DNA of 64,000 nt from Paenibacillus puerhi (GTDB taxonomy: Bacteria; Bacillota; Bacilli; Paenibacillales; NBRC-103111), in assembly GCF_009846885.1 (NCBI RefSeq), contig NZ_WUWM01000003.1, positions 1 to 64,000 of the forward strand, in the 5' to 3' direction. Shown here one piece after another: positions 28,756 to 49,992 of the stretch (positions are counted from its first letter, which is position 1; each line of letters begins with the position of its first letter). The notes under the pieces are model-generated. The model did no database searches and was not told where the DNA came from. It worked only from the letters and a program-made list of their open reading frames with translations. Made by a program: the position numbers and the translations under genes.

Positions 28756-28812
28756 CACTCTACTCATGTGGAGTGCCTAATATTGATGGTATGAAATGAG
28801 ATGTGACAGTAC
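28756..28812 (+). repeat. CATGTGGAG dispersed element, copy A
   Basis: CACTCTACTCATGTGGAGTG, an imperfect palindrome, followed by CTAATATTGATGGTATGAAA and GATGTGACAGTA. The tail is shared with copy B at 32841-32902. It lies between the Pth2 gene and the first accessory module. Confidence 0.7.
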
Positions 28813-28915
28813 TAAATTTCCCGTTGCTAATCCATATGCTGTGTATATACCTGCTTTCTTTGTGTGGGTCAAACTGTTTTTTATGGTTATAGCTAAATTA
28901 GGAAGGAGAAAACAA

Positions 28916-29551
28916 ATGACCATAATTGACAAACTAGCAACCTCACTCAACCGCAGAGACGAAGGTCCTAATCAGGAACTGGCAACATATATTGCCAACC
29001 GGGATGATAGAATGGCCGTGAAGGAACTTGTTGACAACTTGTATAACAGAGACAAGAACATTCAAAGCGATTGCATTAAAGTTCTTTATGAAGTCGGAGA
29101 ACTTAACCCGACTTTAATTGCTGAATATAGCAAAGAGTTCGTAGCATTGCTTGATCATGGGAACAATCGACTTGTATGGGGGGCAATGACAGCATTAGAT
29201 ACGATAACGCTTGAAAAGCCGGAAGCCATTTATTCAGCGCTTGCAAAAATTGTAGATATTGCTGGCAAAGGATCGGTAATCACCAGAGATCACGGTGTAA
29301 ACATCCTGATTAAGCTTTGTTCAATCAAACATTATGCTGATCATGCATTCGCCTTACTCATCGAACAGCTTAAGAGCTGTCCGACAAATCAACTTCCCAT
29401 GTATGCGGAGAATGCAATACCCATCGTTAACGATAAAAATAAAGAATTTTTCATAGAGACACTATTCTCACGGCTAGACGATATTGAAAAAGATACAAAA
29501 CGAAAGCGAGTGGAGAAACTGATTAAGAATTCGCGAGCAATTTTTCGCTAG
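28916..29551 (+). CDS. HEAT-like repeat protein, hypothetical
   Basis: A 211-residue, all-helical, soluble protein. Repeated helical hairpins with the pattern of HEAT/armadillo repeats are visible (DCIKVLYEVGELNPTLIAEY; LLDHGNNRLVWGAMTALDTI; HGVNILIKLCSIKHYADHAF). I chose ATG 28916, preceded by GGAAGGAGAAAACAA, over a longer upstream frame without a start signal. It is followed 23 bp later by the SLH-GH18 gene and probably shares its transcript. HEAT repeats bind proteins or nucleic acids, including alkylated DNA in AlkD-like members, but none of the AlkD catalytic residues can be confirmed. Function unknown. Confidence 0.8.
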   Translation: MTIIDKLATSLNRRDEGPNQELATYIANRDDRMAVKELVDNLYNRDKNIQSDCIKVLYEVGELNPTLIAEYSKEFVALLDHGNNRLVWGAMTALDTITLEKPEAIYSALAKIVDIAGKGSVITRDHGVNILIKLCSIKHYADHAFALLIEQLKSCPTNQLPMYAENAIPIVNDKNKEFFIETLFSRLDDIEKDTKRKRVEKLIKNSRAIFR

Positions 29552-29574
29552 ACCTTTTAGTTGGAGGGCATACT

Positions 29575-31200
29575 ATGATAAAAAAGATAAGTTTAATAGT
29601 TTCCTTGTTTGTTACGTTGTTTACTGGCAGTGCTTATGCGTATGATGTCCAGCTAGGATCGTTTACAGATGAGGAGTTCGATTATGCGTACGACCCGATT
29701 TATACCTTATCCGCTTTAGGAATTATTGATGGATTTCCAGATGGAACCTATCGTCCGAACGTGGCTTTGTCCCGGGAAGCTTTTATTAAACTACTCGTTG
29801 TTGCTGCGAAAATAGAAACGAATCAGGTAACCGGAAGTAACCCTGCCGATGTAGGCAAGGATCGTTGGTCTGCCCCTTTTATTTCAATCGCTCATGAACG
29901 AAAATGGATTGACAGTTTACTAGATAGCGAGGGATTGTTCCACCCAGAGCAAACGATCACCCGCCAAGAAGTAGCCATGTTAATAGGGAAATTTCTGCTA
30001 GAGACTGAGGGGAAAGAGTTACGGCAAGGATGGTTATCGACAGATTGGAAGCAGGAGCGAAACTTGCGGGATTTCCAAGATCAAATGATGATCCGTGAGG
30101 ATATGCAGCCCTATGTCTATTATGTTATACATCGCGAGATAATGGAGGGCGATTCAGGTGGTTTTAAGCCCGAAGAGCCTTTGATTCGCAAGCAGGCAGC
30201 AGCCGTGATCTACCGTTTAATTAATAAAAGAATTGAGGTACAAAAATTAGACTTTACCGGATACTATGCCATACAATCGTATGCAGCGATGAGCCAGATG
30301 AGCAAGCTCTCTGATGTAATCTTTGGCTGGTCCCACTTAGAATATACAACTGCGGGAACAGCAAAATTAAATACGGATACAACGGTTAACCGTATTCCGT
30401 TAGGCTTTGAAGAAGTGATCGCAGCCGCAGATACAGCTCAAATCGCTAAAGAACTGATGGTATTTTACGACGGCAGTAACTTGAAGGAATTTCTTAAAGA
30501 TAAGCCAGCTCAAGAAACTTTTATCGCTTCCTTACTCTTAACCTTAAATGATCCTACATACCGTTTTACCGGGGTAAGCATTGATTTTGAAGGCTTGAAG
30601 GAAGCGGCAAGCGCTGAAGATTATGTTGGATTTCTTAAGGATTTGAAAGATCAGCTTGGCACCCATACCTTATCTGTTTCCGTTCCTCCAATATATTATT
30701 ACAAGGGCTATGATCTTGAACAAATTGGTAAGCTAGCCGATACCGTCATTCTCATGGCATATGATTTCACTCATAATGAAAGCAAACTGCCTTCGGCCCC
30801 ATTGCCGTTGGTTCATGATGTCGTCCGAACCGCTCTTGCCTTTATTCCAAAAGAAAAGCTGGTGCTGGGGATTTCGAAACAGGCTAACCAGTGGATTAGT
30901 ACGGATGGTATAACGGCGCCCCCTTTAAGTCCAGCGATTGCCGAAGTGGAGAAACGATTAGCCATGCCAGATGTTACTCAAACATGGACGTTGCCCTACT
31001 TTTTGAAACAAGTGACATTTGAGGATGCTCGCGGGAGCCATGTGATCTACTATGAGGACACACAAAGCATAGCCAAAAAGCTCTGGCTCGCCAAGTTCTA
31101 TGATCTTAAGGGAGTTTCTTTATGGTTCATGGGCAGTTATACTGAGGCAGATTGGGAGCTTGTTGGTCAGCAGACAGCGAAGCGAAGCAAAGTGAACTAG
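29575..31200 (+). CDS. Cell-wall GH18-type glycosidase with SLH domains
   Basis: A 541-residue secreted protein. A signal peptide (about residues 1-22, ending SAYA) is followed by three S-layer homology motifs (YTLSALGIIDGFPDGTYRP near 43-62; the second around FHPEQTITRQE; the third around FKPEEPLIRKQAA), which anchor proteins to pyruvylated cell-wall polymer. Residues about 230-530 form a GH18-like barrel of the spore-coat YaaH/YdhD type; the catalytic segment GVSIDFEGL places the acid at Glu339, with a later VILMAYDFTHNES motif. Such enzymes act on chitin or peptidoglycan N-acetylglucosamine linkages. GGAGGGCATACT precedes ATG 29575. Confidence 0.85.
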   Translation: MIKKISLIVSLFVTLFTGSAYAYDVQLGSFTDEEFDYAYDPIYTLSALGIIDGFPDGTYRPNVALSREAFIKLLVVAAKIETNQVTGSNPADVGKDRWSAPFISIAHERKWIDSLLDSEGLFHPEQTITRQEVAMLIGKFLLETEGKELRQGWLSTDWKQERNLRDFQDQMMIREDMQPYVYYVIHREIMEGDSGGFKPEEPLIRKQAAAVIYRLINKRIEVQKLDFTGYYAIQSYAAMSQMSKLSDVIFGWSHLEYTTAGTAKLNTDTTVNRIPLGFEEVIAAADTAQIAKELMVFYDGSNLKEFLKDKPAQETFIASLLLTLNDPTYRFTGVSIDFEGLKEAASAEDYVGFLKDLKDQLGTHTLSVSVPPIYYYKGYDLEQIGKLADTVILMAYDFTHNESKLPSAPLPLVHDVVRTALAFIPKEKLVLGISKQANQWISTDGITAPPLSPAIAEVEKRLAMPDVTQTWTLPYFLKQVTFEDARGSHVIYYEDTQSIAKKLWLAKFYDLKGVSLWFMGSYTEADWELVGQQTAKRSKVN

Positions 31201-31269
31201 TGAAGGAGCACCCGTTTTTGAGGGACGCAGAATACGCCGGAAAGAAATATATGTAGGCCGGAAATGGGA

Positions 31270-31318
31270 AGTGCTGTGTGTCGCTATAAGTAAGTAGTAA
31301 TCAAGAGCCGCATTTACC
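31270..31318 (+). repeat. CATGTGGAG dispersed element, partial copy C
   Basis: AGTGCTGTGTGTCGCTATAA, then AGTAGTAATCAAGAGCCGCATTTACC: the right-hand half of the element as in copies D and E, without the left palindrome arm. It lies just after the SLH-GH18 gene. Confidence 0.6.
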
Positions 31319-31456
31319 ATATTGACTAGGGTTCAAGTGCAGGATATGCTTGAGCCCTTATAATTTTATGGAAACTCTCCCCTGTGTCAGCCTGGTCAGG
31401 ATGTTTTGGCGTTGAGCCCCATTGCTTTTTTAAAAGCGATATGTTATATTCAACGC

Positions 31457-33430: not shown

Positions 33431-33625
33431 TTGAAAAATAAAAAAATGAAAATGGCTCGAATTGAAAACGATATGAGTCAAGAGGATTTAGCTGACATTG
33501 TCGGTGTAACACGGCAAACGATTGGCTTGATAGAATCTGGAAATTATAATCCGACATTAAAACTTTGTATTGAAATCTGTAAAGCTCTTAACAAAACACT
33601 TAATGACTTATTCTGGGAGGATTAA
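33431..33625 (+). CDS. Small Cro/C1-type HTH regulator
   Basis: A 64-residue single-domain XRE-family protein. The helix-turn-helix is NDMSQEDLADIVGVTRQTIG with LIESGNYNPTLKLCIEICKA after it, typical of the YozG-type stand-alone regulators. The start is TTG 33431, 6 bases after GGAGGG. It directly abuts the membrane-protein gene at 33626 (no gap), so the two are coupled. Such pairs usually mean the regulator represses its own operon. A parallel HTH plus small membrane protein pair lies at 49106-49622. Confidence 0.85.
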   Translation: MKNKKMKMARIENDMSQEDLADIVGVTRQTIGLIESGNYNPTLKLCIEICKALNKTLNDLFWED

Positions 33626-34117
33626 ATGAAAAATAAGAAAATCAAAGATGAACGAATTATGCAGTTAAAAAACAAAATTCAAAGCGAAGCCTATATGGTA
33701 GTAATATTCTTGGCAGGTATTTCTTGCTTTATTAAATCCCATGTGATGGATTTGGACTTTTCACAGTTCGCAGTTGAATTTGGAATTATTATTTTGTCAA
33801 CAGCTTATATCGCAATAAGAAGCATGTTGATTGGACATGATCTTATGAATAATTCTAAAGGTGGAAAAGTATTAACAATAACGTCTATATTAGCGATAAG
33901 CCTTGCAATAAGTATTATAAATGGAGTAAGAAACTATTCTCTTTACAGTGATAAGTACTCTGGAGTTTTCGATGGGTTATTTATTTCAGTATTGGTAGTA
34001 ACTTTTATTTCTGCAGTTGTTTTTATTTCCGTTGTATTTGCTCTTCTATATGGGTCCAACTTACTAGGACAAAGAAGAATTGAAAAGAAACTCAATGAAG
34101 TTGAAGATGACGATTGA
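33626..34117 (+). CDS. Four-helix membrane protein paired with HTH regulator (DUF6773-like)
   Basis: A 163-residue integral membrane protein with about four hydrophobic segments (near residues 22-40, 48-65, 82-100 and 118-142) and charged cytosolic ends. It resembles the uncharacterised DUF6773 proteins that follow YozG-type HTH genes in Bacillota. ATG 33626 overlaps the region just past the regulator stop, with GGGAGGA upstream. The next gene, an erythromycin-esterase-type lipoprotein, starts 31 bp downstream. Function unknown; a role in membrane stress or antimicrobial response is a guess from context. Confidence 0.75.
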   Translation: MKNKKIKDERIMQLKNKIQSEAYMVVIFLAGISCFIKSHVMDLDFSQFAVEFGIIILSTAYIAIRSMLIGHDLMNNSKGGKVLTITSILAISLAISIINGVRNYSLYSDKYSGVFDGLFISVLVVTFISAVVFISVVFALLYGSNLLGQRRIEKKLNEVEDDD

Positions 34118-34148
34118 AATCTACAATAGAAATGAAAGGAGTTCAAAA

Positions 34149-35405
34149 ATGAGAACAAAAATGAAAACTATTGTTGCTATAGTAACCTTGAGTATTTCCC
34201 TACTTACAGGGTGTGAAAAGGGAGCTGCAAAACTGCATCCGGACTTATCAATTATACAAACAGATATCAGTACTCTTACTGTTTCTGAAAATGTGCAGGT
34301 TGTAGGGCTTGGAGAAGCAAGTCATGGTACAAAAGAATATCAACAGATGAAAACAGAAGTGTTCAAAGCTTTGGTAGTAAACAATGGGAGTCGAACATTT
34401 ATTATTGAGGGGGATTTTGGAGGAGCATTAAAGGCAGATGCTTATATTCATGGGGCTGAGGGATCCGCCGAAGATGTGGTTAAGGAAATAGGCTTCAAGA
34501 TCTATAACACGCAAGAAATGGCTGATTTAGTTGATTGGATGCGTTCCTATAATAAAAAGGCCCCCACGGGAAAAGACTTACACTTTTATGGAATGGACAT
34601 ACAACGATACGATAATAACAAAGAGAAGCTATTTTCTATTTTAGATTTAGCTGCACCTGAATTGAGTGAAAAATATAAAACTGCTTTTTTACAATTGACT
34701 GACGAGGAAAGATTGACTATAAATGCAGATGTTTTGAAAAGGTCCAAAGAAGATGCTTTAGGGTTGTTGAAAGAAATGGACACTTACGAAAAAGATATTG
34801 TTGCCATTGCTGGACAGACTGGTTTTGATTTTGCAAGAGAAAGTGCAAATACAATATATGCGTATAGTGATTTGCTATTAAGTAGTAATTCTGATTACAA
34901 CTCTTTGCGAGATAAGTATATGTCAGAGAAAGTAAGTTGGTTTTTACAGCACGGAGACGGTAGTGTACTGTTTATTAATGGTCATAATGGTCATATCGGC
35001 AAAAAATCAGTTTCTGGCTATACTCCATTAGGCGAACATTTAAGTAATAATATAGGAGATAATTATTTCGCTATTGGAACTGATGCAGAGAATACAGAAT
35101 TTCATTCACAAAACAGTAATGGAAGTTTTAGTGTGATGGAAGTTAAAAATCGAAATGAATTAAATAAACAACTTGATCATGTGGAGAATGAATTTTACTA
35201 TATGGACTTTTTGAAAGCAGCCGATGAAGAAAATTGGAACAGAATTTTAGAGGGTAAGCAAACTATTACAACCTTGAACGTTGGAATTTCAAGTTGGCAA
35301 AAGATCCTGAAGTATTTTTATACAACAACCATTGTCCCTAGTGATACATATGATGGAATGATTGTTTTCAAAAAGGTTACTCCTTCAACACTTCTTAAAA
35401 ATTAA
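34149..35405 (+). CDS. Erythromycin esterase-family lipoprotein
   Basis: A 418-residue member of the erythromycin esterase (Ere/succinoglycan-biosynthesis-like) superfamily. The N-terminus is a lipoprotein signal with the lipobox SLLTGC. Conserved motifs are VVGLGEASHGTKEYQQMK with the catalytic His, FIIEGDFGGA, LHFYGMDIQRY and VLFINGHNGHIGK. Ere enzymes hydrolyse macrolide lactones, but most superfamily members have other or unknown substrates, so resistance is not implied. ATG 34149 follows GAAAGGAGTTCAAAA. Being surface-anchored is unusual for a macrolide esterase; an exported hydrolase role is more likely. Confidence 0.83.
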   Translation: MRTKMKTIVAIVTLSISLLTGCEKGAAKLHPDLSIIQTDISTLTVSENVQVVGLGEASHGTKEYQQMKTEVFKALVVNNGSRTFIIEGDFGGALKADAYIHGAEGSAEDVVKEIGFKIYNTQEMADLVDWMRSYNKKAPTGKDLHFYGMDIQRYDNNKEKLFSILDLAAPELSEKYKTAFLQLTDEERLTINADVLKRSKEDALGLLKEMDTYEKDIVAIAGQTGFDFARESANTIYAYSDLLLSSNSDYNSLRDKYMSEKVSWFLQHGDGSVLFINGHNGHIGKKSVSGYTPLGEHLSNNIGDNYFAIGTDAENTEFHSQNSNGSFSVMEVKNRNELNKQLDHVENEFYYMDFLKAADEENWNRILEGKQTITTLNVGISSWQKILKYFYTTTIVPSDTYDGMIVFKKVTPSTLLKN

Positions 35406-35451
35406 AGGATTAAAATAAGTCGAGAATCGAAAATCGGATGAAAAGGAGGGA

Positions 35452-36297
35452 TTGGAAATTCGGACAGCAATCAAAATTCGGCAGCCAATAACGATTGCGA
35501 TTATTTTTCTTGTCGTGATAACGATGTCGATGTATGGATACTTTCGTCCGGAAGGAAGCATAATATACCCTTCTGTTCATGTAGATATAGAAGCTGATTT
35601 TTTATCGGAGGCATACTTTTCTGAACTCTCAGACCAGTATGATCAAATTCGCTCTGAGCATCGAAAAAGGTATATATTTGACACATCCAAAGCAATTGCA
35701 TCACACGCGATCCTAACGCATATGATGCATGATTTGGTGGAAAATCAAGAGCTTCTGAATGGGCATAAGCAATTTGATCTGTTTTTTGAGACATTTGATC
35801 AACATGTCAAACAACTCCCTTATATCACGGAAGCGATTCATTATTTTCGTAATGAACTGAATCGATATGGAGGGGCGCCTAAACGATTAGAAGAAATGAT
35901 TGAACTAGCGGCATGCGGCAAATGGCAGCTATTCAGCGCTAGATATCACCGGTATGAGGTAAGCGAATATGACGCTGCTTATAATGTAAAGTTAATATCA
36001 TCGAATGGTCGCTTTGAAGTTGTCTACAATGCTGAGACGGGTCAGATGGTAAACGATCCGGTAAACATGGGCACCTATAATTATGCGCATGGCAGCAAAA
36101 TTCCATGGAAATATTACCAGCATCATCAATTTGATAAAGTCCCCTGGATGAAATGGGGCAATACCAATCAGGTTTCATACGAGGAAATTACACAAAGACA
36201 GACAAGACATGGATCATTAGAGCAAAAAGATAGTTCAGATGCACTCCAAAAGCTAATTCAAAACAAAATGCGAGAATCACAGACGTGTCACAATTAG
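35452..36297 (+). CDS. Hypothetical signal-anchored protein
   Basis: A 281-residue protein with an N-terminal membrane anchor (residues about 13-29, ITIAIIFLVVITMSMYG) and an extracytoplasmic domain rich in His/Tyr. The C-terminal part contains FEVVYNAETGQMVNDPVNMG and TYNYAHGSKIPWKYYQHHQF, then DKVPWMKWGNT; this NP-N-GTYNY...PW..WGN pattern occurs in uncharacterised secreted proteins and some polymorphic-toxin tails as far as I recall. The start TTG 35452 follows AAAAGGAGGGA. It may be the last gene of the transcript beginning at 33431. No function is assigned. Confidence 0.7.
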   Translation: MEIRTAIKIRQPITIAIIFLVVITMSMYGYFRPEGSIIYPSVHVDIEADFLSEAYFSELSDQYDQIRSEHRKRYIFDTSKAIASHAILTHMMHDLVENQELLNGHKQFDLFFETFDQHVKQLPYITEAIHYFRNELNRYGGAPKRLEEMIELAACGKWQLFSARYHRYEVSEYDAAYNVKLISSNGRFEVVYNAETGQMVNDPVNMGTYNYAHGSKIPWKYYQHHQFDKVPWMKWGNTNQVSYEEITQRQTRHGSLEQKDSSDALQKLIQNKMRESQTCHN

Positions 36298-36302
36298 ACG
36301 GA

Positions 36303-36396: not shown

Positions 36397-36564
36397 GAAT
36401 TGAACTCTCCTCCCCATTACATCCTGCTAATTCGACCAGAAACTGCATACTAACTCGAATATGTATTCGCACATTAACGGAATGGTTCTTCTCTATCTCT
36501 GAAGAAATTTTACAAAATATGGTTATATTACTATTGATGATCATTTCGTCTTTTCTGTACGGTA

Positions 36565-36755
36565 TCTGGGGATATATGGCATAAGACAGCAGGGAAACTC
36601 ATTCTCAAAAATCCGCATTATACGGGAGATTTGGTTCAAGGTCGTTCTAAAGTCGACCAGGTGGATAAAATGTTCCATCAGGAGAAGGGATACAAAAAAA
36701 GAAATAATATCGATGAAGAGAATTGGCTCGTTAATAAAAATAGTATCACCTCTAC
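36565..36755 (+). pseudogene. Relic of a large serine recombinase
   Basis: The plus frame reads GKLILKNPHYTGDLVQGRSK and, after VDQVDKM, FHQEKGYKKRNNIDEENWLV. This is the recombinase-domain segment (LRNPHYTGDLVQGR...) found in SpoIVCA/TnpX-type large serine recombinases. Neither the resolvase catalytic domain nor the zinc ribbon is present, and no start codon is supported. It ends about 65 bp before copy D of the dispersed element. Confidence 0.6.
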
Positions 36756-36820
36756 TATAATTACAAAAATCCGGTGTTACTGGGGGCTTAAGTCGCCCCC
36801 TAAATATTTAACTATATTAA

Positions 36821-36889
36821 GCACTCGACACATGTGGAGTGCTGTGTGTCGCTCATAAGGAAGTAGCATGTTTGAGAGCCGCATTTACC
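36821..36889 (+). repeat. CATGTGGAG dispersed element, copy D
   Basis: GCACTCGACACATGTGGAGTGC (imperfect palindrome), then TGTGTGTCGCTCATAAGGAA, GTAGCATGTTTGAGAGCCGC and ATTTACC. It precedes the LysR-ABC-MBL operon; copy E, nearly the same over 68 bases, follows that operon in the same orientation. Confidence 0.75.
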
Positions 36890-37976: not shown

Positions 37977-38010
37977 ACGGCTCGCCCCCTTCAATACTCC
38001 TACATGTCTA

Positions 38011-40415: not shown

Positions 40416-42080
40416 ATGAACTTCAAACGACCTGGGACGTTACTGGCGCCGCTGCTGTTGGCTGCGCTGGTCGTCCTTCCTCTTATATATGTATGTCTGA
40501 CAAGCATATGGGTGAACGGCCGTCTGGATTTACTGGGGCCGATCCGCACTATCCTTCGTCAAAATTTGACCGGCGTGTTTACGAACTCGCTATTTCTCGG
40601 CATCTGCGTCGTGGTTATATGCACCTTGCTTGCTTTTCCGCTAGCTTGGATTATGGCAAAGACGCCGCTGCGGAAGCACCGGTGGCTGGATATTGTGCTG
40701 CTCATTCCATTCATGACGCCTCCGTACATCGGCTCGATGGGCTGGATTTTGTTCATGCAGCGGAACGGCTACCTCGAGCAGTTGTGGCCGTCGTCAACAG
40801 CGGCATGGATCAGCACGCATTTCTTCAGTTTGACCGGCATGGTTGCCATTATGAGCCTGCATTTGTTCCCTTTTCTGTACTTGATCCTGCGGGGAGCCAT
40901 CGAGCAGCTCGGGAGCAGTAAAGAGGAAGCTGCGGCTGTTCACGGGGCCGGTTTTCTATACACGATGCGGCGCGTCATGCTGCCGCTTATTTTAGCCAGC
41001 TACGCGATGGGCGCACTTCTGGTCTTCGTAAAGACGCTGGCAGAGTTCGGAACGCCGGCCACCTTCGGCAGACGGATCGGTTACTCCGTCCTAACGACCG
41101 AGATTCAAGGCGCTATCTCCAGCTGGCCGATCGATTTCGGCAAAGCGACCTCTCTCTCCTCACTGCTGCTTATTGCCTGTCTGATACTATGGTATATCCA
41201 GTCTGTCATCGTCCGCCGTCATTCCTACAATCTGGTCAGCGGCAAGGGCAGCAGGGAGAGACTGTACGGTTACCATGTCTGGCAGCGGGCGATCGCTTGG
41301 GGTTACATTGCGATCTTGCTGGGTACGTCCATCGGCATTCCTTACTTCTCTATCGTATCCGCTTCGTTGATGAAGCTGCGAGGTGCCGGCCTCGCCTGGA
41401 CGAATCTGACGCTTAGCCATTACGGCGAGCTGCTGACCTGGGGGTCGCCGAGTATGAAGGCGCTCCTGAACAGCCTCGGTCTGGCTTTGCTCGCAGCCTG
41501 CTTGGCGGCTGCGCTAGGCACGTGGCTCGCGCTGACGATAGGCCGCTCCAAGCGGCTGTCGCAGCGGGTGACGGATATGATGAGCTTGTTGCCGAACAAT
41601 GTGCCGGATATCATCATGGTCGTCGGCCTCATCATGCTGTGGAACTCGACCTGGATGCCAATTAAGCTCTACAACACCTACGGGATGGTCGTGCTGACTT
41701 ACGTCATTTTCTTTCTGCCGTATACCGTTCAGTATGTCAAGGCGCGCAACGGTCAGCTCGACGATTCGCTCCGCCACGCCGGCCAGGTGTTCGGCGGACG
41801 TCCCTGGTACGTGTTCCGGCGCATCGTGCTGCCGCTGCTGCTGCCAGGCGTCATTGCCGGCTGGATGATGACCTTCACCATTTCGCTGCGGGAGCTGGTC
41901 GCCTCGCTGCTGGTGCTGCCGCCTTCGATGCGAACGTCGGCCACCTACATCTTTGCGCAGTTTGAGCAAGGGCAAATCTCTCTCGGCATGGCCATGGCGG
42001 TGATCTCCGTCGGCCTAACGACCTTGCTGCTGCTGTTCGTTAACAGCATGAATTCAAACAGAAAGTGGAACTTGTCATGA
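40416..42080 (+). CDS. ABC permease with two transmembrane domains (FbpB type)
   Basis: A 554-residue permease in which two six-helix BPD_transp_1 domains are fused, as in FbpB/AfuB. Each half has its ATPase-contact loop: EEAAAVHGAGFLYTMRRVML in the first and DSLRHAGQVFGGRPWYVFRR in the second, each followed by LPL. Hydrophobic segments are spread over the whole length. ATG 40416 follows GATAGGATGAGCGTGCA. The stop overlaps the ATG of the hydrolase gene (ATGA at 42077-42080), so that enzyme is translated together with the transporter. Confidence 0.88.
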   Translation: MNFKRPGTLLAPLLLAALVVLPLIYVCLTSIWVNGRLDLLGPIRTILRQNLTGVFTNSLFLGICVVVICTLLAFPLAWIMAKTPLRKHRWLDIVLLIPFMTPPYIGSMGWILFMQRNGYLEQLWPSSTAAWISTHFFSLTGMVAIMSLHLFPFLYLILRGAIEQLGSSKEEAAAVHGAGFLYTMRRVMLPLILASYAMGALLVFVKTLAEFGTPATFGRRIGYSVLTTEIQGAISSWPIDFGKATSLSSLLLIACLILWYIQSVIVRRHSYNLVSGKGSRERLYGYHVWQRAIAWGYIAILLGTSIGIPYFSIVSASLMKLRGAGLAWTNLTLSHYGELLTWGSPSMKALLNSLGLALLAACLAAALGTWLALTIGRSKRLSQRVTDMMSLLPNNVPDIIMVVGLIMLWNSTWMPIKLYNTYGMVVLTYVIFFLPYTVQYVKARNGQLDDSLRHAGQVFGGRPWYVFRRIVLPLLLPGVIAGWMMTFTISLRELVASLLVLPPSMRTSATYIFAQFEQGQISLGMAMAVISVGLTTLLLLFVNSMNSNRKWNLS

Positions 42081-43366
42081 TGCAATTGAAAGTATGGGGG
42101 GGAGCAGGCGAGCACGGACGCTCCTGTTATATGCTGCAAAGTGGGGAGACGCGGGTTTTGCTGGATTGCGGCGTCAAGCGGACCGGTAGCGGCGAATATC
42201 CGCTCCTCGACCCGGCTGAAATTCCGCATATCGACGCGGTGTTCCTTTCGCATGCCCACGAAGATCATTCCATCGCTCTGCCGCTGTTGTACAAGCTTGG
42301 CTACCGCGGCAAAGTGTGGACAACCCGGATTACTGCCGAGCTGTTGCCCGCTTACTATGCTACGTGGGGCCACTACGTCGAACAGCAAGACGCCCGGCTG
42401 CCATACGACGAAACGGATATACGCAGCATCGCTTACGCTTATCTGGACGAAGCGGCCCCAGCCTTAGGCTGGATTGAGCTAGGCCCTGAGCTGCGCGTCT
42501 GCTGGGGCCGCAGCGGCCATATGCTCGGCTCGGTTTGGTTCCTGCTGGAGCTTTCGGGAAGGCGCTTCTTCTACTCGGGCGATTACACAGAGGAATCGCT
42601 GCTGCTGCGCACCGACGCGCTGCAGCGATTGCCCGGCGGCCCCGGCGAGCTGACGGGGGCTGTCATAGACGCAGCCTACGGCCTCGACGCCGAGCCGCAG
42701 TCGGCCAAGCTGGAGCGGATCTACGCCGCAGCCGACGGCGTCCTGACGGCAGGGGGACATCTCCTGCTGCCGGTTCCGCACAGCGGCCGCGGCCAGGAAC
42801 TTCTGCTGCTGCTGCAACGACAATTCCCCGGCGTGCCGCTGCGGGTGGAAGAAGAGCTGCTCCACGGTCTGGAGCAGCTCCTCCGGCAGCCGGGCTGGCT
42901 GAAGCCCGGCGCGGAGGCAAGGATCGCGGCCGCGCTCGGCGGGCTGGAGGTCGTCCGCGATGCGGAGCAGCGAACGCGGTTCCTGCAGCCCGGCGCGCAG
43001 CCGGGCATCGTTCTCACCGGTGACGGCATGATGCAATCGCCGAAGGCGCAGTGGTACTACAGGCAGTTGCGCCGCAACCATCTGAACGGCATTATCCTGA
43101 CCGGACATGCCTACAAACATACTCTCGCGGATCGGCTGCTCCGTATGGCGCCGCCGGATCGCGGCTGTCGCGTCGAGCGTATCGTGTACAAAATCCATCA
43201 GGGCTTGCCCGACGTCCGCCGAATGCTTCAGGCTGTGCCATGCCCGGTCGCGATTTTGGCGCATGCTCCGGAGGCCGACACGGAGGCGCTGCTGCGACAG
43301 CTCAAGGCGGAAGGGCATCGTGGCCTACTGTCCCTCCGGCCCGGAGATGCCGCTACGCTAGCCTAG
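42077..43366 (+). CDS. Metallo-beta-lactamase-fold hydrolase with beta-CASP-like layout
   Basis: A 429-residue MBL-fold protein. The metal motif is SHAHEDHSIALP (His59, His61, Asp63, His64), His148 lies in GRSGHMLGSVWF, Asp169 in YSGDYTEES, and a late His in GIILTGHAYKHTLA. The order MBL core, inserted helical segment, then a C-terminal his-containing motif resembles beta-CASP nucleases (CPSF73/RNase J side) more than lactamases, but the insert is GC-rich and degenerate and RNA or nucleotide substrates are unproven. Translation is coupled to the permease by a 4-bp overlap, which points to processing of the imported compound, possibly phosphodiester or phosphonate-like. Confidence 0.8.
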   Translation: MMQLKVWGGAGEHGRSCYMLQSGETRVLLDCGVKRTGSGEYPLLDPAEIPHIDAVFLSHAHEDHSIALPLLYKLGYRGKVWTTRITAELLPAYYATWGHYVEQQDARLPYDETDIRSIAYAYLDEAAPALGWIELGPELRVCWGRSGHMLGSVWFLLELSGRRFFYSGDYTEESLLLRTDALQRLPGGPGELTGAVIDAAYGLDAEPQSAKLERIYAAADGVLTAGGHLLLPVPHSGRGQELLLLLQRQFPGVPLRVEEELLHGLEQLLRQPGWLKPGAEARIAAALGGLEVVRDAEQRTRFLQPGAQPGIVLTGDGMMQSPKAQWYYRQLRRNHLNGIILTGHAYKHTLADRLLRMAPPDRGCRVERIVYKIHQGLPDVRRMLQAVPCPVAILAHAPEADTEALLRQLKAEGHRGLLSLRPGDAATLA

Positions 43367-43433: not shown

Positions 43434-43501
43434 ACACTCCATACATGTGGAGTGCTGTGTGTCGCTCGTAAGGAAGTAATATTTTCATAGCCGCATTTGC
43501 C
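43434..43501 (+). repeat. CATGTGGAG dispersed element, copy E
   Basis: ACACTCCATACATGTGGAGTGC, TGTGTGTCGCTCGTAAGGAA, GTAATATTTTCATAGCCGCA, TTTGCC. Same orientation and layout as copy D at 36821-36889, with a shared ATGTTTGAGAGC motif just before it (43391-43402). Confidence 0.75.
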
Positions 43502-43586
43502 TGCCTGTATATTGAAGCCCAAATGTATTTCGTATTCGGGCTTCTGTGTTTGTGGTGGCCAAGGCTTCATATCCTCCTCGCAGCTA

Positions 43587-43860
43587 AACGAATGCGCCGA
43601 TCGTGTTTCTAAGCATTCGTGAGGAAGACGAGGTGAAAATTAGCGCATTATCCGATGGCGGCGACGATTTTGTGACAAAGCCATTCAGTCTCCTGTCCTA
43701 TATGGCACAGAATGTTAACCGTATGATCAATGCCGATACGTTATTTCAGCTCATCTGGGGAACGGAGAGTCTGGAGGATACGAGAACGGTCGCTGTACAC
43801 ATCAGTAATTTACGTAAAAAATCGAGGCTGACCCTGTCAATCCTCAAATTTAATAAATAA
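43587..43860 (+). pseudogene. Internally deleted copy of the response regulator gene at 55940-56644
   Basis: From ACGAATGCGCCGATCGTG onward the DNA follows the intact regulator gene closely. It encodes FLSIREEDEVKISALSDGGDDF and VTKPFS, then jumps to LLSYMAQNVNRMINADTLFQ and LIWGTESLEDTRTVAVHISN. About 50 residues between the receiver end and the DNA-binding domain are lost; the join falls at GTTCAGTC, which occurs at both deletion ends in the intact gene. The receiver start (with the phosphorylated Asp) is absent, and one A missing from the AAAAAAA run near 43815 shifts the frame at the end. Not functional. Confidence 0.8.
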
Positions 43861-43896
43861 CGGTACAGGGATAAACCCCTTGTACCGTTATTTTCT
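43859..43896. terminator. Bidirectional terminator
   Basis: AACGGTACAGGG ATAAA CCCCTTGTACCGTT followed by ATTTTCTCG on the plus strand and by ATTTATTAAATTT on the minus strand. Confidence 0.7.
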
Positions 43897-43993
43897 CGTT
43901 TGGATCATTTTCTCGCTTAGGAGCTGCCGCTCGAATAGAGGAAGATGGGCAGGCCGAGCGAGTCGATGAACTTCTTACTATCACACAGATGTT

Positions 43994-44030
43994 AGCAAAA
44001 AAGGAAAGCCCCCGATGGAATCGGAGGCTG
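43994..44030 (-). terminator. Terminator of the S-layer protein gene
   Basis: On the minus strand AGCCTCCGAT TCC ATCGGGGGCT forms a 10-bp stem (44007-44029) followed by TTCCTTTTTTGC, 11 bp past the stop codon at 44040. Confidence 0.8.
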
Positions 44031-44039
44031 ACTGGCGGG

Positions 44040-46964
44040 CTATTCCAGGATAGTGACGTCTTCTATAATAATTATCTTGGATAAGAACGTCACTATAATT
44101 CTCGTGCTGCCCGGTTTGAGCGCCGTAAGGAAGCCATTGGCATCGATTGTGGCTAAGTCCGGATCTTCAATTTCAATCGTCGCCCAAGCGGTCGCGTCTT
44201 CCCTCGATTCGTCGTCAAAGTCCGCGAAGACTAAGAGGTTAGTTGTCTCCCCTACTCTCAGCGGGTTTGAAGACAACCAGGCGTCGATGGACACCAATTG
44301 ACGCGATGCCGTCGTCACCATCACCGGCACGTTCTTTGTTATGTGGCCATAGGTGACGACGATGTTCGTGGTTCCGTTTGCGACCGCTGTCACGACGCCC
44401 GTATTACTGACCGTCGCAACTCTTGTGTCGGTGCTCTCATATTGCGCCACTCCGGTTACGTTGAGCGATGTGTGGTCATTGAAGCCCGCCGTAATGACGA
44501 GCGCATATGTCGCACCAGTTACCGTCAACGTAACATTGGCCGGATTGGATGTCAGAAGCGTCAAGGTCGGGGCAGGCGGCGCGATCGTCACCGTCACCGG
44601 AACGTTCTTTGTTAAGCCGCCATAGGTGACGGCGATGTTCGTGGCTCCGTTTGCGACCGCTGTCACGACGCCCGTATTACTGACCGTCGCAACGCTCGGG
44701 TCGGTGCTCGCATATTGCGCCATTCCGGTTACGTTGAGCGATGTGTGGTCATTGAAGCCCGCCGTAATGACGAGCGCATATGTCGCACCAGTTACCGTCA
44801 ACGTAACATTGGCCGGATTGGATGTCAGAAGCGTCAAGGTCGGGGCAGGCGGCGCGATCGTCACCGTCACTGGCACGTTCTTTGTTAAGCCGCCATAAGT
44901 GACGACGATGTTCGCGGTTCCGCTTGCGACCGCCGTCACGACGCCCGCATTACTGACCGTCGCGACGCTCGGGTCGGTGCTCGCATATTGCGCCACTCCG
45001 GTTACGTTGAGCGATGTGTGGTCATTGAAGCCCGCCGTAATGACGAGCGCATATGTCGCACCAGTTACCGTCAACGTAACATTGGCCGGATTGGATGTCA
45101 GAAGCGTCAAGGTCTGGGCAGGCGGCGCGATCGTCACCGTATATTGCACAGACGCTGTTGCCGGAGTTGTAGCCGAATCTGTCGCGCTGATCGTGAAGCT
45201 ATACGTGCCGCTAGCGCTTGGAGTTCCAGAAATAACCCCTGTGTTTTCATCCAAATCCAGTCCCGCAGGCAGTTGTCCGCTGGTGACTGCATAAGTAATG
45301 GCTCCTGTCCCACCAGATGCTGCTACACTGCCGGTATAGGCTTGTCCCACAACCAACTGCGAAGTGGATGATATCGATTCAGGCAATTCGATAGGTATTG
45401 TAACCGTATATTCAAATGTCGCAACCGAGCTATTCTCCCAGCCAGGTTGAACGGCGATGGCTTTAATCGTTGTACGGCTCGTAATGATGATCGGTCCCGT
45501 ATACGGCGTGCTGGACGTGGTCGGCGTGCTGCCATCTGTCGTATAGTAGATTGTTGCGCCAGCCGTTGCGCTAAGCGCTGCTTGCGTACCTGACACGACA
45601 GCTCCGCCAGCAGGGTTGGCTGTCGGTGTCGCGAGAATTGGCTGTGAAAAGCCGACATGAACAAGGAATGAAGTGGATACTGTGCCATTCTTCTTATCAT
45701 CTGCTGTTACAGTTATGGTTGCTGTCCCTTGATTAAGAAGTGTAAGTTTAATCGTGTAAAAACCATTCTCTGAATACAACTCTGATTTAACGATATTTAC
45801 ATTATCCGAAACTACAGAATAAGATAATTCATCTCCATCAGGATCTGTAAAGTGATCGTCTATATCAATATATTCTATACTCCCTACAGTAAGTTCACGT
45901 TTAGCAAATTCGCTTACCACTTGAGGAGAACGATTTACTGGTGTATTTTCATTGTCATCATTGTCGTTACTGTCGTTACTGTCGTTACTCCCACCTCCAC
46001 CTCCACCTCCACCTCCACCTCCTGAACTTGAACCACTGCTCGAAGGTGATGAAGGATTTGTTTTTCCGGTTTCAATTATTTGAATAGGTCCATTAGGAGT
46101 CGTATCCTTATTGTACTCTACACGGATTTTACTTTCTGAAGGTAGGTTTTCTACTTTAATAGTAACGCTTTTCTTATCTTCAGAAAGTGTTACATTCTCT
46201 ATGGGAATAACTTTTCCATTCTCGTCTGTTAAAACTAAGTCTTCAGGCGATAACGCTTGAAGTTCTTTTGTAAAAGTTATTGTTAAGGTTTTGTCGTCAA
46301 CCTGTGTAACAGTATCTATTTTCGGACTAATTTCATCTTGAACCTTTAAAAATTTTGACGCTACGAGTGCCACAGCTTGACGCTCTGCATTACCCTGGGG
46401 ATTAAAACCTTCTCCAGTCCCACTAATCAACCCTAATTCAACAGCGGCAGCAACGGAGTCCTTAGCGTAATCAGCAATTTGTCCCGCATCAGAGAAAGAT
46501 AAGTTAGCTGCCTTACCTGTCACATCTGTGCCTAATGCTCGTACAAAGAGAACAGCCATATCTTGGCGAGAAAGATTGGCTCCAGTTCCAAATGTTCCAT
46601 CCCCATTACCCTCAATTAAACCTGCTTTGGCTGCAGCTTCTACATAACTAAAGGCATAGTGTGTGTTAGATACATCGGAAAACGTTGAGGTTGCTGGGGC
46701 ACTAGTTACATCTAAGTTCAATGCTTTTGCCAAAATAATTGCAAAATCTTGTCTTTCAATTCTCCCCGTGGGATCGAATTTCCCATCACCTTTACCATTT
46801 ATAATACCTGCTTCTGCTAACCCCAGGATAGCATCTTTTGCGTAAGAGCCGTTGATATCTGTTAAATCTGTTGCTGCAAGAGCACTCAACGAAAATGAAG
46901 ACAAAGCTAACAAACCACTTAATAGTAAGTTATTTATTACTTTAAAGACTATTTTCTTTTTCAA
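44040..46964 (-). CDS. Large S-layer-type surface protein with SLH motifs and Ig-like repeats
   Basis: A 974-residue secreted protein. Signal peptide (to about residue 30, ending ALAA), three SLH motifs (ITDINGSYAKDAI region; FSDVSNTHYAFSYVEAAAKA; FSDAGQIADYAKDSVAAAVE) anchoring it to wall polymer, an Ig-like domain, then a run of 11 glycines encoded by a CCACCT hexamer tract and an SND/DN-rich spacer. Beyond it come a cadherin-like segment, a chitobiase-type beta domain (YYTTDGSTPTTSSTPY), a putative-Ig domain (SGQLPAGLDLDENTGVISGT) and three almost identical 91-residue BIG_2-type repeats, plus a diverged fourth. The start is TTG 46964 after AGGAGAGG. Likely a cell-surface adhesin or S-layer component. 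Confidence 0.87.
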   Translation of the reverse strand: MKKKIVFKVINNLLLSGLLALSSFSLSALAATDLTDINGSYAKDAILGLAEAGIINGKGDGKFDPTGRIERQDFAIILAKALNLDVTSAPATSTFSDVSNTHYAFSYVEAAAKAGLIEGNGDGTFGTGANLSRQDMAVLFVRALGTDVTGKAANLSFSDAGQIADYAKDSVAAAVELGLISGTGEGFNPQGNAERQAVALVASKFLKVQDEISPKIDTVTQVDDKTLTITFTKELQALSPEDLVLTDENGKVIPIENVTLSEDKKSVTIKVENLPSESKIRVEYNKDTTPNGPIQIIETGKTNPSSPSSSGSSSGGGGGGGGGGGSNDSNDSNDNDDNENTPVNRSPQVVSEFAKRELTVGSIEYIDIDDHFTDPDGDELSYSVVSDNVNIVKSELYSENGFYTIKLTLLNQGTATITVTADDKKNGTVSTSFLVHVGFSQPILATPTANPAGGAVVSGTQAALSATAGATIYYTTDGSTPTTSSTPYTGPIIITSRTTIKAIAVQPGWENSSVATFEYTVTIPIELPESISSTSQLVVGQAYTGSVAASGGTGAITYAVTSGQLPAGLDLDENTGVISGTPSASGTYSFTISATDSATTPATASVQYTVTIAPPAQTLTLLTSNPANVTLTVTGATYALVITAGFNDHTSLNVTGVAQYASTDPSVATVSNAGVVTAVASGTANIVVTYGGLTKNVPVTVTIAPPAPTLTLLTSNPANVTLTVTGATYALVITAGFNDHTSLNVTGMAQYASTDPSVATVSNTGVVTAVANGATNIAVTYGGLTKNVPVTVTIAPPAPTLTLLTSNPANVTLTVTGATYALVITAGFNDHTSLNVTGVAQYESTDTRVATVSNTGVVTAVANGTTNIVVTYGHITKNVPVMVTTASRQLVSIDAWLSSNPLRVGETTNLLVFADFDDESREDATAWATIEIEDPDLATIDANGFLTALKPGSTRIIVTFLSKIIIIEDVTILE
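44353..45171. repeat. Three tandem 273-bp repeats encoding BIG_2-type domains
   Basis: Units at about 44353-44625, 44626-44898 and 44899-45171 are nearly identical at DNA level (for example the shared stretch GTTACGTTGAGCGATGTGTG in each). The high identity implies recent duplication or gene conversion, and allows copy-number change by recombination. Confidence 0.85.
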
Positions 46965-47329
46965 CCAAACCTCTCCTGTTCAAGTAAAAAGTGATAATAG
47001 GTAAAGCATATCCATTTGCAGGGTCGTCGGCACCGACGTCTTTGAATGAAGACGACTTTAAGTCCGTATCCACCTTCAAACCGAAAATCAACGCTACAAC
47101 CTTAGCGAATTGCGCCCAGTTCATCTCATCCTTGAGACCGAAATTGCCCTCGTGCACACCGTCGAATACACCAGCGGATATCATCGCGTCGAACTTGGCT
47201 TTCGTTGCTTCATCCAGATCCTTCAAGTCCGTAAAGTCGGCTGAAGTCTTCGTTGCGTCTGCTGCAAAGCTGACGGGAAATGAAAGCACAGTAGTACCGC
47301 CATCAGCGATCCGACAATTTTTTCCTCAT
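46942..47329 (-). pseudogene. Truncated SLH-domain protein with frameshifted signal peptide
   Basis: ATG 47329 (GAGGGACAAACG upstream) begins MRKK; the expected signal peptide KKIVGSLMAVLLCFHF continues in another frame, and the mature start LSFPVSFAADATKTSADF in a third, so the signal region is broken by small indels. The rest reads one SLH motif (LDEATKAKFDAMISAGVFDG, GNFGLKDEMNWAQFAKVVAL) and then part of another (FKDVGADDPANGYALPII), after which it collapses into the leader of the S-layer gene at 46964. It is a relic whose promoter region (47373-47442) may now drive the S-layer gene. Confidence 0.7.
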
Positions 47330-47442: not shown

Positions 47443-47510
47443 CAAGCAAGCCAAAGAAACAGATTACAAAGATAATTGGCTGGAAGAATGTTGATTCGAT
47501 GCGATATTAA

Positions 47511-47541
47511 GCACTCCACACATGTGGAGTGTACAGTGTTA
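47511..47541 (+). repeat. CATGTGGAG dispersed element, copy F
   Basis: GCACTCCACACATGTGGAGTG, the best palindrome in the family, then TACAGTGTTACTA; preceded by ATATTAA as in copy D. It lies 27 bp from the recombinase pseudogene. Copy G at 49958-49992 is the direct repeat on the other side of that module. Confidence 0.75.
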
Positions 47542-47567
47542 CTAAAATGGAAGGGGCAGGAATAGTC

Positions 47568-48880
47568 CTACGCCCCTTGTTGTTCCAGCGTCCTTACGGA
47601 TTGAGGGCGGGAAATGTTGTAATGTATGGCTTTGATTGATCCGTCGTCATTGACTTCGATTTTTTGAATGAGTCTTTGGAGTACCTGCTTCAAGACTTGC
47701 TCATCGTCAATGTCAAGTTTGGTGAAGCGGGATATTTGCTTTCTAAAGGCACGGAGTTGTTCTTCTGTGTCTTTTTTTGTTTCAAGTAGGCTTTCAATCT
47801 CTGCCTTCCTTTGGGAAAGCCTACCTTGTTCAAATTGGATATGCTCATTCTGTACTTTGAACTGTGCTATGTCGATAACCTTTTCTGTGTAGAGTTGCAA
47901 AAGGCTTTGAAACTCTCTGTTGAGCTTGTTCAGGCGTTTTGTGACGGTAGCTAGTTCTTTCAAGTATTTCGTATGCTGTTCATTAGCTTTTGTGTTTGCC
48001 GCCCCGTAGAGCCTTTCTAGCTTAATGTTGTCAGTAATCAGTTCCTTCAGTTCATCTTTGACAGCTTGCAATAAATTGTCGTATCCAATGATATGAGAGG
48101 AACAGTAAGACGTTGAGTGCTTCACATAACCAACGCATACATAAGCCCCGCCGCTCTTTTTTCTTCTGTCTTTGCGGAAGGTCATACCCTTACAGCAATC
48201 AGCACATACGGCTATGTGAGCAAATAAACTTTCACTACCGTTACTGTTGTTCCTGCCTTTTTTCTTCATCTTCTCCAATACGGCTAAGTGCTCGTCCATT
48301 GTGATAATGGCAGGATGTGCATTTTCATGGACTACTTGCTCGCTAGGATCTACACGTCTACGCTTCTTGGAGATGAAGTCTCTTGTCTCTTCACGATGAT
48401 GTACAAGAGTGCCTGTGTAGACAATGTTTTTGAGAATGACGCTTACGGAACTTTGATTCCATAATGCCCCTGCTTTCCCGCCGCCTGATACTGTTCTAGG
48501 AGTTGGAATCTCCCTACTAATGAAGAAGTTACTGATTTTGTACATACCCCAATCCTGATACAGATAGAGGTCGAAAATTTCCCGAACAATAGGTGCATAA
48601 TCCTCGTCAAGTACCTGCTTCTTACCGTCACGCTTGTAGCCAAATGCAGGTAGAGAAGCCTTGTAGACTCCCTGTCGTGCGCTAGCCTTCAGCCCTATTT
48701 TAATGCGGTCAGATAGTTTGCGCTTTCTTCTTCAGCAAGTACAGCCTTTAATTGAAATGTTAGTTTGCTTGTGCATGTTGATGTGTCATAGCTATCCTCA
48801 GGCAGAATTAAGCGAATATCCATTGACTCAATTTCATGCGCTGTCTGAAGATTTTCGATAGTGTTTCTATTCTAAAGCAT
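47568..48880 (-). pseudogene. Large serine recombinase, frameshifted and truncated
   Basis: The minus strand reads the body of a SpoIVCA/TndX-type large serine recombinase. The upstream part (48880-48720) gives IENLQTAHEIESMDIRLILP and LKAVLAEEES, the end of the resolvase domain; a single-base loss near 48718 then shifts frame into KLSDRIKIGLKASARQGVYK. The last 325 codons are open and contain the recombinase domain (LKNIVYTGTLVHHREETRDF), the zinc ribbon (CADCC ... CSSH) and a long coiled coil. The catalytic Ser region is missing altogether. Non-functional in this form, but the DNA-binding part may still be translated from an internal start. Confidence 0.8.
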
Positions 48881-49098: not shown

Positions 49099-49105
49099 CT
49101 ACTAA

Positions 49106-49312
49106 TCAAAAATAAAACAATTCCTCAAATTTCTTGTCTAAAGCTATACATAAAATGAGGGCTAATTTAGCAGTCGGGCAAAACTGTCCTGTTTCAATTG
49201 AGCTGATTGTTTGGCGTGATACTCCCACCATTTCAGCTAATTGTCCCTGTGAAAGATTTTTTTCTGCCCTCGCTACTTTAAGGCGGTTATTTAATACTAA
49301 TTCATCCTTCAA
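49106..49312 (-). CDS. Small Cro/C1-type HTH regulator
   Basis: A 68-residue single-domain XRE regulator with NLSQGQLAEMVGVSRQTISS and IETGQFCPTAKLALILCIAL, similar in size and layout to the one at 33431-33625. The start is TTG 49312 after GGAGGG. It follows the membrane-protein gene with a 4-bp gap, so both are on one transcript, with the order reversed relative to the other pair in the window. Probably represses its own operon. Confidence 0.85.
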   Translation of the reverse strand: MKDELVLNNRLKVARAEKNLSQGQLAEMVGVSRQTISSIETGQFCPTAKLALILCIALDKKFEELFYF

Positions 49313-49316
49313 ATAA

Positions 49317-49622
49317 TTACCCTCCTATAAAAAACGCTATTGTACTAGCGATCACAGCAGTTATTCCCAATATGGAAGCAGCTAATAATTTCCCTGACTT
49401 TAATTGAGAATATTTATATATGCTTCTTCCGGCGACACATGCGGTGAAAAGTGCATAAAGGTCATAACTATAAACTCCGTGCATCAAATTCCATATTGCA
49501 AAAATAAGCGTCAAGGCAAGGACAAATATCAAACTTATATCGTTTGAATCCCCCTCGATTTTTTCTTCTCTTTCGTCAAGACCGGATTTTCTGCTCTTTT
49601 CTAAAATTTCTTCCTTTTTCAT
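49317..49622 (-). CDS. Small membrane protein paired with HTH regulator (DUF6442-like)
   Basis: A 101-residue protein beginning MKKEEILEKSRKSGLDEREE, typical of the uncharacterised DUF6442 proteins, followed by about three hydrophobic segments (ISLIFVLALTLIFAIWNLMH; YALFTACVAG; LLAASILGITAVIASTIAFF). ATG 49622 follows GGAAGGGGTTTTAAA; the longer frame upstream is not supported. Encoded directly before its HTH partner. Function unknown. Confidence 0.8.
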   Translation of the reverse strand: MKKEEILEKSRKSGLDEREEKIEGDSNDISLIFVLALTLIFAIWNLMHGVYSYDLYALFTACVAGRSIYKYSQLKSGKLLAASILGITAVIASTIAFFIGG

Positions 49623-49892
49623 TTTAAAACCCCTTCCTTTGTGTTGAGAATAATATAGCAGCTTTTTCACTGGATATCAAGTATACTTGTCATAAATACA
49701 TTAAAACTTGTCATAATGACGATATAAATTATCAATCTGACAAATGTACTTGTCTTGCTGAAATATCAACCTTACCGCTTTGTGCGAGGATGTGATACAA
49801 AGCCTATGCTAAATACTATTGAGTACGTTAAAAATGCCACAACCTCAAAAAGGGGATAGTCCCAAAATTTATACTTTCTTATATCTAAATAA

Positions 49893-49919
49893 AAGGGCGA
49901 CTGTTGTCAGCCGCCCCTT
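49893..49919 (-). terminator. Intrinsic terminator downstream of the DinB gene
   Basis: On the minus strand GGGCGGCTG ACAA CAGTCGCCC followed by TTTTATTTAG. Confidence 0.7.
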
Positions 49920-49957
49920 CATTGAGTAAATGCTATCCCTGTCATTTGTTTTCAGTG

Positions 49958-49992
49958 TCTACACGTCACATGTGGAGTGTATAGTGTCAACA
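49958..49992 (+). repeat. CATGTGGAG dispersed element, copy G
   Basis: CTACACGTCACATGTGGAGTG then TATAGTGTCAACAC. The right part (GGAGTGTAYAGTGTYA) matches copy F at 47511-47541 in the same orientation. Confidence 0.65.

Follow-up and report, generated by a model that had tools for sequence, protein, structure and literature searches.

Why should short palindromic sequences recur, in one orientation, between gene modules that are otherwise unrelated to each other? This question is raised by a 64,000-nucleotide stretch of Paenibacillus puerhi DNA (contig NZ_WUWM01000003.1, positions 1 to 64,000; hereinafter the window, its contig being denoted C23), in which a series of such elements (A, p, C1, C2, D, E, F and G; Table 1) separates modules with diverse gene content. 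The original prediction, made from the sequence alone, held that a site-specific or transposon-like system strings these modules together, somewhat like integron cassettes, and named a miniature inverted-repeat transposable element (MITE) or a family of regulatory hairpins as alternatives. The explanation that we consider very probable is that the elements are attL/attR scars of tandemly accreted large serine recombinase (LSR) islands, which target the 3' end of the gene for the RumA/RlmD methyltransferase at its His-Val-Glu(-Cys) codons. Below, C, G and L numbers denote contigs, genomes and loci, respectively, with the exception of scars C1 and C2.

The core of the palindromic elements and the methyltransferase gene

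With at most one mismatch allowed, the core CACATGTGGAG was matched six times in the window, each time on the plus strand, compared to 0.71 matches expected and a maximum of 3 in 100 shuffles, and the copies are sited between gene modules on the same strand, as had been predicted. The predicted subgroups of tails were recovered as well: in a repeat search of the window, A and C1 showed 82% identity over 44 nucleotides (nt) and D and E 88% over 51 nt (87% over 67 nt in a DNA search), and F and G have GTGTA[CT]AGTGT in common after the core. The partial copy p has lost the core and is 79% like the E tail. When the window genome was searched with E as the query, the DNA matches included D (87%), contig C59 (85%), p (79%) and 29 nt (93%) at the end of a gene on contig C43.

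The core CATGTGGAG corresponds to His-Val-Glu codons near the 3' end of the 23S rRNA m5U-methyltransferase gene (RumA/RlmD, TIGR00479); in congeners, it is located within the last codons of a gene whose end reads ..QPVDMFPHTAHVEC... CAT-GTG-GAG translates as His-Val-Glu, and the seven core-bearing copies in the window (A, C1, C2, D, E, F and G) share this frame. Furthermore, CVSLVRK- and TVLLK-type tails also terminate the intact methyltransferase gene, depending on the species. Because the window copies are in the methyltransferase frame and carry tails found in intact genes, each element can be interpreted as a severed gene end, that is, an attachment (att) site. The claim that the elements lie between modules and never in genes therefore stands for the window, where the copies are intergenic, but not for relatives, where the core is inside the 3' end of the methyltransferase gene, a location that explains the intergenic copies. 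The C43 gene of the window genome is itself a methyltransferase of this family (569 bits vs the TIGR00479 cut-off of 184). In a separate set of loci (L117, positions 2093-2376, and also L120, L123 and L130), the methyltransferase gene is immediately followed by att sites in tandem, with a spacing of about 141 bp that is too short for a large cargo gene.

Genomic distribution and strand of the sites

In the window genome, the exact 13-mer CACATGTGGAGTG is present in 6 copies (of which the window has three and C42, C59 and C72 have one apiece; none for the reversed-pattern control) and the looser 11-mer CATGTRGARTG in 18 (3 for the reversed control). On the basis of their flanks, 12 of the 18 looser matches were assigned to the family (6 in the window, and C15, C30:8501, C42, C43, within the gene, C59 and C72); the other 6 (C16, C21, C30:50041, C38, C56 and C67) were set aside, with those on C16 and C21, which also read HVEC, considered doubtful. 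Across 104 genomes of the family, the window genome included, 55 contain the exact 13-mer, at 125 sites altogether, compared to 6 for the reversed-pattern control summed over the per-genome rows. The random genome-wide scatter that had been named as evidence against the cassette idea did not occur: on the 21 contigs with at least two sites, all 29 pairs of neighbouring sites are on the same strand, and 24 of these pairs lie within 100 kb.

This common strand is that of the methyltransferase gene. On contigs of relatives with a recognised gene end, 20 of the 21 att-like sites (at most one mismatch in CATGTGGAG, plus a frame rule) share the strand of the gene, at distances up to 108 kb, their downstream position being partly a consequence of the choice of regions because the stretches were mostly taken downstream of the gene. 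The sole site on the opposite strand (G017) has one mismatch to the core and falls within the coding frame of an LSR. The count omitted the sites for which no gene end had been recognised, namely those of G076, where the gene end and three sites are all on the plus strand, which is that of the gene; G092, with three minus-strand sites on the gene strand and one plus-strand, one-mismatch site upstream; and one plus-strand site on C37 of G022, where the gene is also on the plus strand. Two G008 sites on the gene strand failed the frame rule.

Two single-contig genomes illustrate the resulting arrangement. In G076, the methyltransferase gene (8029614-8030921, plus strand) is followed by three plus-strand sites within 18 kb. 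In G016, sites at 19 and 108 kb behind the gene delimit a 19-kb and an 89-kb element in tandem, and both elements have an LSR at the end distal to the gene. The 89-kb interval between two att sites (G016:C1:5658009-5747061, L078-L082) shares DNA with G024 (L076), namely 190 bp starting at the core (92%) and then, separated by a gap of 3.9 kb in G016, 6.5 kb at 86%; the G024 counterpart encodes ParA/ParB-like and SAF-domain proteins.

Large serine recombinases beside the core

The predicted recombinase relics beside D and F are both present: a truncated LSR converges on scar F and a fragment precedes scar D (Table 1). The truncated enzyme, for which no Pfam match to the catalytic Resolvase domain was found, is 77% identical over 385 amino acids (aa) to an enzyme of Aneurinibacillus danicus. 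A scan of named genomes with this window F-type LSR yielded 30 loci, of which 9 encode close (at least 49% identity) and 21 distant relatives. In 8 of the 9 close relatives, the core or a near variant is located 77-93 bp beyond the enzyme, on the opposite strand, and in four of these eight the core is inside the methyltransferase gene; among the distant LSRs, none of the 21 has a core match at 77-93 bases in the same screen. The screen was uniform (degenerate 8-mer, HVE frame, 600 bases on each side of the LSR) and detected loose matches within 600 bases for 2 of the 21 distant LSRs (L154 at 274 bases, on the strand of the LSR, and L163 at 449); a stricter screen of the 21 loci gave three one-mismatch matches, none at an LSR end. 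In a search of the family at E<=1e-90, 6 of the 104 genomes matched, the window genome included, and all 6 have the core or its variant CATGTGGAGGTG at the end of the recombinase. When the two sets are combined, with P. periandrae, which is taken to be the one overlap on account of an equal site sequence, counted once, 13 of 14 window-type LSRs, including the broken one in the window, end beside the core. The LSR adjoins a core inside the methyltransferase gene in L134, L135, L136, L142, G017 and G102.

Three further LSR clades (F2, R and T), 22-34% identical among themselves and to F, adjoin the same core. The open frames of the R-type enzymes (L074, L082 and L089) pass through the att core, whereas the F-type enzyme of the window is not cut by the site. 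An in-frame swap of the HVEC tail between methyltransferase and R-type LSR genes was considered and rejected, because only one of the three enzymes (L082) reads the core in that frame. Searches of plasmids and phages with the A. danicus F-type LSR (E<=1e-60) gave no match, two exact core-plus-tail patterns had 0 and 0 occurrences in viral contigs, and no DNA similarity at E<=0.1 was detected between the D region and plasmids or the E region and phages.

Homology borders and empty sites

A border was defined as inter-genome homology ending within 15 bp of a site, and the counts were compared with 1000 random draws. Gene-borne sites coincide with such borders in 19 of 19 cases (random mean 0.9, maximum 4), which is partly expected because the conserved gene stops there; the cleaner test comes from the other sites, with 11 borders at 37 sites (random mean 0.64, maximum 4). 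The scar sets used here and in the symmetry analysis may include chance matches and near-duplicates, and the counts are not independent because the genomes share ancestry. G021 and G022 provide a direct comparison of an empty with an occupied site: the G021 gene passes the core straight into a region whose homology in G022 starts exactly at the core, on another contig, and the G022 methyltransferase gene continues into different DNA.

Site symmetry and the F-G element

Two-fold symmetry around a central dinucleotide is the typical appearance of a serine recombinase crossover site. When 15 shifts were compared as dyad centres in 99 distinct scar sequences, the CA of CATGTGGAG came out best in 63, with a mean of 5.8 of 10 arm positions paired around it vs 1.4-4.9 at the other shifts; for the arms of D and F (GCACTCGACA/TGTGGAGTGC and GCACTCCACA/TGTGGAGTGT), 9 of 10 positions around CA are paired. 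This CA is a candidate central dinucleotide and probably marks the crossover base.

When the left arm of G was compared with the far-end arms of eight other F-type elements, a mean of 19.4 of 30 positions (best 24) matched, compared to 18.9 of 30 among these arms themselves, 8-15 for the six other window scars compared and 8-17 for 17 other scars. Because G resembles the far-end arms to the same degree as these resemble each other, F-G is, to judge by its sequence, a single F-type element that has decayed but retains both ends. In five named genomes, elements of this type span the 4.8-10.4 kb between two sites. The proteins selected from them for annotation include a DnaD-like HTH_36 protein, a sub-threshold Rep_trans match and, close to the recombinase, HTH_17 proteins (one over and one under the cut-off); as cargo, there are type I restriction-modification genes in P. 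caui, an AAA_15 ATPase in A. danicus and, in B. laterosporus (where the adjacent module encodes an OLD-like protein), an AlwI-type restriction enzyme and its methylase; no conjugation gene was recognised among these selected proteins of the small elements. A 5.7-kb contig of the window genome, C59 (L068), contains one att site, the candidate defence pair PDC-M22A/B and a weak DrmC-like frame. Some of the islands thus bear restriction-modification, OLD-type and candidate defence genes.

Probable evolutionary scenario and alternatives

In the scenario that we infer, an active recombinase would integrate an element through a single conservative crossover, for which the CA of CATGTGGAG is the probable position. 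The last codons of the methyltransferase would be swapped for the in-frame tail of the element, and the far end would receive another copy of the site. Because the tail replaces the last codons in frame, the methyltransferase gene would stay open. In the subsequent order of insertion, later elements would enter at any existing site, on the strand of the gene, so that islands would accumulate in tandem; the recombinase genes would later decay, with the scars persisting as borders of modules. Excision of an F-type element is predicted to yield a junction consisting of a far-end arm, CATGTGGAG and a TGTACAGTGTTACT-type tail. The window array would derive from a methyltransferase gene from which it is now separated or which is missing from the assembly.

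Several observations weigh against this scenario. A single methyltransferase gene of the genome scores over the cut-off, and it is located on C43, a contig that stops 1.4 kb beyond the gene; the window array, which starts behind a Pth2 gene, is on C23, where no methyltransferase remnant was detected at E<=1e-3; the draft assembly has no join between the array and the gene. The att sites on C15, on C30 and beside the G085 LSR are also on contigs with no methyltransferase gene. Seven window intervals contain just two recombinase relics, most modules having no recombinase. The ninth close LSR relative, that of P. tarimensis (L140), has no core beside it; the match covers residues 1-350 only and is followed by an apparent transposase gene (a label assigned by eye), with a site of the far-end type 6.6 kb away. 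No homology border was found at 26 of the 37 non-gene sites, 13 of them in the window genome, and the occupied G022 site was pieced together from two contigs. Among the fetched loci, there is no relative carrying the window modules and no empty site for these modules; comparison of the window open reading frames with these loci gave only weak, paralogue-like or recombinase matches, so the window array is not anchored by synteny. Finally, gene-borne sites are less symmetric than the scars, with CA best in 22 of 44 and a mean of 4.4 vs 4.6 one base to the right.

The recombinase-free modules, those of the window and three in G076, are perhaps relics, perhaps cassettes that move in trans. A true cassette system, in which LSRs encoded elsewhere in the cell would act in trans to excise and capture such modules, each with one att site, and the arrays would be working libraries, is a possibility to which we assign considerably less weight than to decayed islands. 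The three G076 modules (2.95, 4.5 and 10.2 kb) are bounded by exact cores, and the fetched 30 kb yielded no LSR, a pattern that loss of recombinases from once-autonomous elements would reproduce equally well. Similarly, G008 has a single-gene module of 797 bp between an exact and a one-mismatch core, but the gene is also present in relatives with other flanks; and a one-gene module is common to G011 and G017 from the core onward, but lacks an att site at its other end and is found in G012 with no adjoining att site. Generalised, this would amount to a Paenibacillaceae cassette platform at the methyltransferase 3' end, on which several divergent LSRs act on one core and modules without a recombinase, each with its own in-frame att tail, travel in trans and are kept in arrays on one strand. 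Such a platform would be a serine recombinase counterpart of the integron; we put this forward tentatively, as rather doubtful. Arrays of recombinase-free modules make the movement of cassettes in trans testable.

The original cassette idea accordingly survives as a site-specific, LSR-linked system stringing modules together, given the same-strand arrays, the borders at the core, the empty and occupied pair and the adjacent LSRs, and fails in its likeness to integrons. In an integron-like array, attC sites would likewise bound modules as same-strand palindromes, but serine and not tyrosine recombinases adjoin the sites, the dyad symmetry is about CA, as befits a crossover site, and the best match to an integron integrase among the proteins of the window genome scores 82.8 bits vs a cut-off of 265, which makes this interpretation extremely improbable. 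The conserved core presumably also differs from that of attC.

A family of regulatory RNA hairpins or terminators at the ends of operons is in accord with the terminator-like hairpins behind some scars (e.g., 31328-31358 behind p), but such sites are not enriched in 28600-43800 (14 vs 15.3 in shuffles), an Rfam search of 26000-52000 at E<=1 gave two sub-threshold matches, none on the core, and the hairpins explain neither the reading frame, the fixed strand nor the link to the methyltransferase gene and LSRs, which already contradicts this reading; we hardly give it any credence. One Rfam match (36877-36959, plus strand; 26.6 bits, cut-off 35) resembles a c-di-GMP-I riboswitch and overlaps the end of the scar D tail; the gene that follows (37050-37994) is on the minus strand, and the match is perhaps a relic. 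A MITE or other transposon family between operons would fit short palindromic repeats that are intergenic and present in several copies in the window, but is contradicted already by the gene-borne copies, and also by the single strand (29 of 29 pairs), the frame of the host gene 3' end and the homology breaks and LSR ends at the core, and can be dismissed with near certainty.

Relation to known integration systems

By target, the closest known system to the LSR islands described here appears to be the streptococcal integrative and conjugative elements (ICEs) and integrative and mobilizable elements (IMEs) in rumA, the same target gene family, for which a single serine integrase and a reciprocal exchange of the 3' end have been described and, in the ICEs, an integrase gene that contains attR (Ambroset et al., 2016, PMC4701971; PMC5357655). 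The R-type frames that run through the att core (L074, L082, L089) are similar to this arrangement, and the F-type enzyme of the window, which converges on the site without being cut by it, is different, as are the four LSR clades (F, F2, R and T) at one core and the arrays of several modules. Integration in this gene beside a serine integrase is encountered in relatives, whereas at the window array the gene itself is absent.

The staphylococcal cassette chromosome (SCC) and the Enterococcus cassette chromosome at rlmH (PMC6222049), and SbCIccrDE at rimL (PMC10581047), provide a second parallel: SCC and its Enterococcus counterpart are also LSR islands at the 3' end of an rRNA methyltransferase gene, with direct-repeat att sites, variable cargo, restriction-modification genes and remnants left at the site. 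Unlike SCC, the islands described here target RumA/RlmD and not RlmH, with the core CATGTGGAG instead of TATCATAA; the latter occurs 4 times in the window vs 2.0 expected, a number reached in 13 of 100 shuffles. Five LSRs scored 47-155 bits on CcrB/CcrC (cut-offs 900) and 33-89 on CcrA (cut-off 700), these families being, though far under the cut-off, among the best named matches. Membership in SCC was ruled out by the scores under the Ccr cut-offs, the other gene and the other core. With integron cassette arrays, the tandem modules bounded by same-strand sites have a likeness only, the recombinase class and the site type being different.

No paper on such arrays in Paenibacillaceae was found in searches of an open-licence full-text collection; the class of mechanism is known, and the arrays in Paenibacillus relatives seem to be undescribed. 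Read as HVE, CATGTGGAG is a simple key to island borders in Paenibacillus and its relatives and accounts for an otherwise puzzling set of palindromes; the 3' ends of rRNA methyltransferase genes would be an island hub also outside staphylococci, enterococci and streptococci.

Gene content of the window modules

The scars, recombinase relics and modules of the window are listed in Table 1.

Table 1. Attachment-site scars, recombinase relics and gene modules in the window
Feature	Coordinates	Strand	Description
att scar A	28756..28799	+	core 28765-28775; reads THVECLILMV-stop
Module A-p	28796..31200	+	251-aa protein with no Pfam or NCBIfam match; SLH-GH18 protein
Degenerate att scar p	31264..31318	+	D/E-type tail only, no core
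Module p-C1	31384..32746	+	ArsR-type regulator, short-chain dehydrogenase
att scar C1	32842..32885	+	CATGTAGAGTG; A-type tail; reads SHVECLILMV
att scar C2	33115..33154	+	CACATGTGGAG; reads STHVEAIVLMSK
Module C2-D	33431..36297	+	HTH_3, DUF6773, erythromycin-esterase-family protein, 281-aa protein with no family match
Second recombinase relic, in open frame before scar D	36541..36855	+	60% like G024 recombinase over ~52 residues
att scar D	36822..36889	+	reads STHVECCVSLIRK-stop
Module D-E	37050..43366	mixed	LysR regulator (-); ABC transporter genes and MBL-fold protein (+)
att scar E	43434..43510	+	reads SIHVECCVSLVRK-stop
Module E-F	43588..47289	mixed	response-regulator fragment (+); SLH/Big-domain surface protein 44040-46964 (-); 115-aa frame (-)
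att scar F	47502..47562	+	recombinase-side end of F-G element; reads STHVECTVLLKWKGQE-stop
Truncated large serine recombinase	47571..48731	-	converges on scar F; Pfam Recombinase and Zn-ribbon matches (47568-48545)
HTH-like protein (label by eye) and DUF6442 protein (Pfam), F-G cargo	49106..49670	-	
att scar G	49939..49987	+	far end of F-G element; reads TSHVECIVSTHRI

The erythromycin-esterase-family protein (PF05139), encoded at 34080-35405, is cargo of the interval between C2 and D. Within the gene for the SLH/Big_2 surface protein, 44303-45140 consists of three tandem copies with a spacing of 273 nt and 93-95% identity. The fragment at 43588-43857 resembles a part of the response regulator encoded at 55937-56644 (FLSIREEDEVKISALSDGGDDFVTKPF vs FLSSREEDEVKISALSYGGDDYVTKPF), which suggests a duplication. 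Beyond the array, two similar small protein genes are located on the minus strand about 8 kb apart (52953-53504 and 61463-61957).

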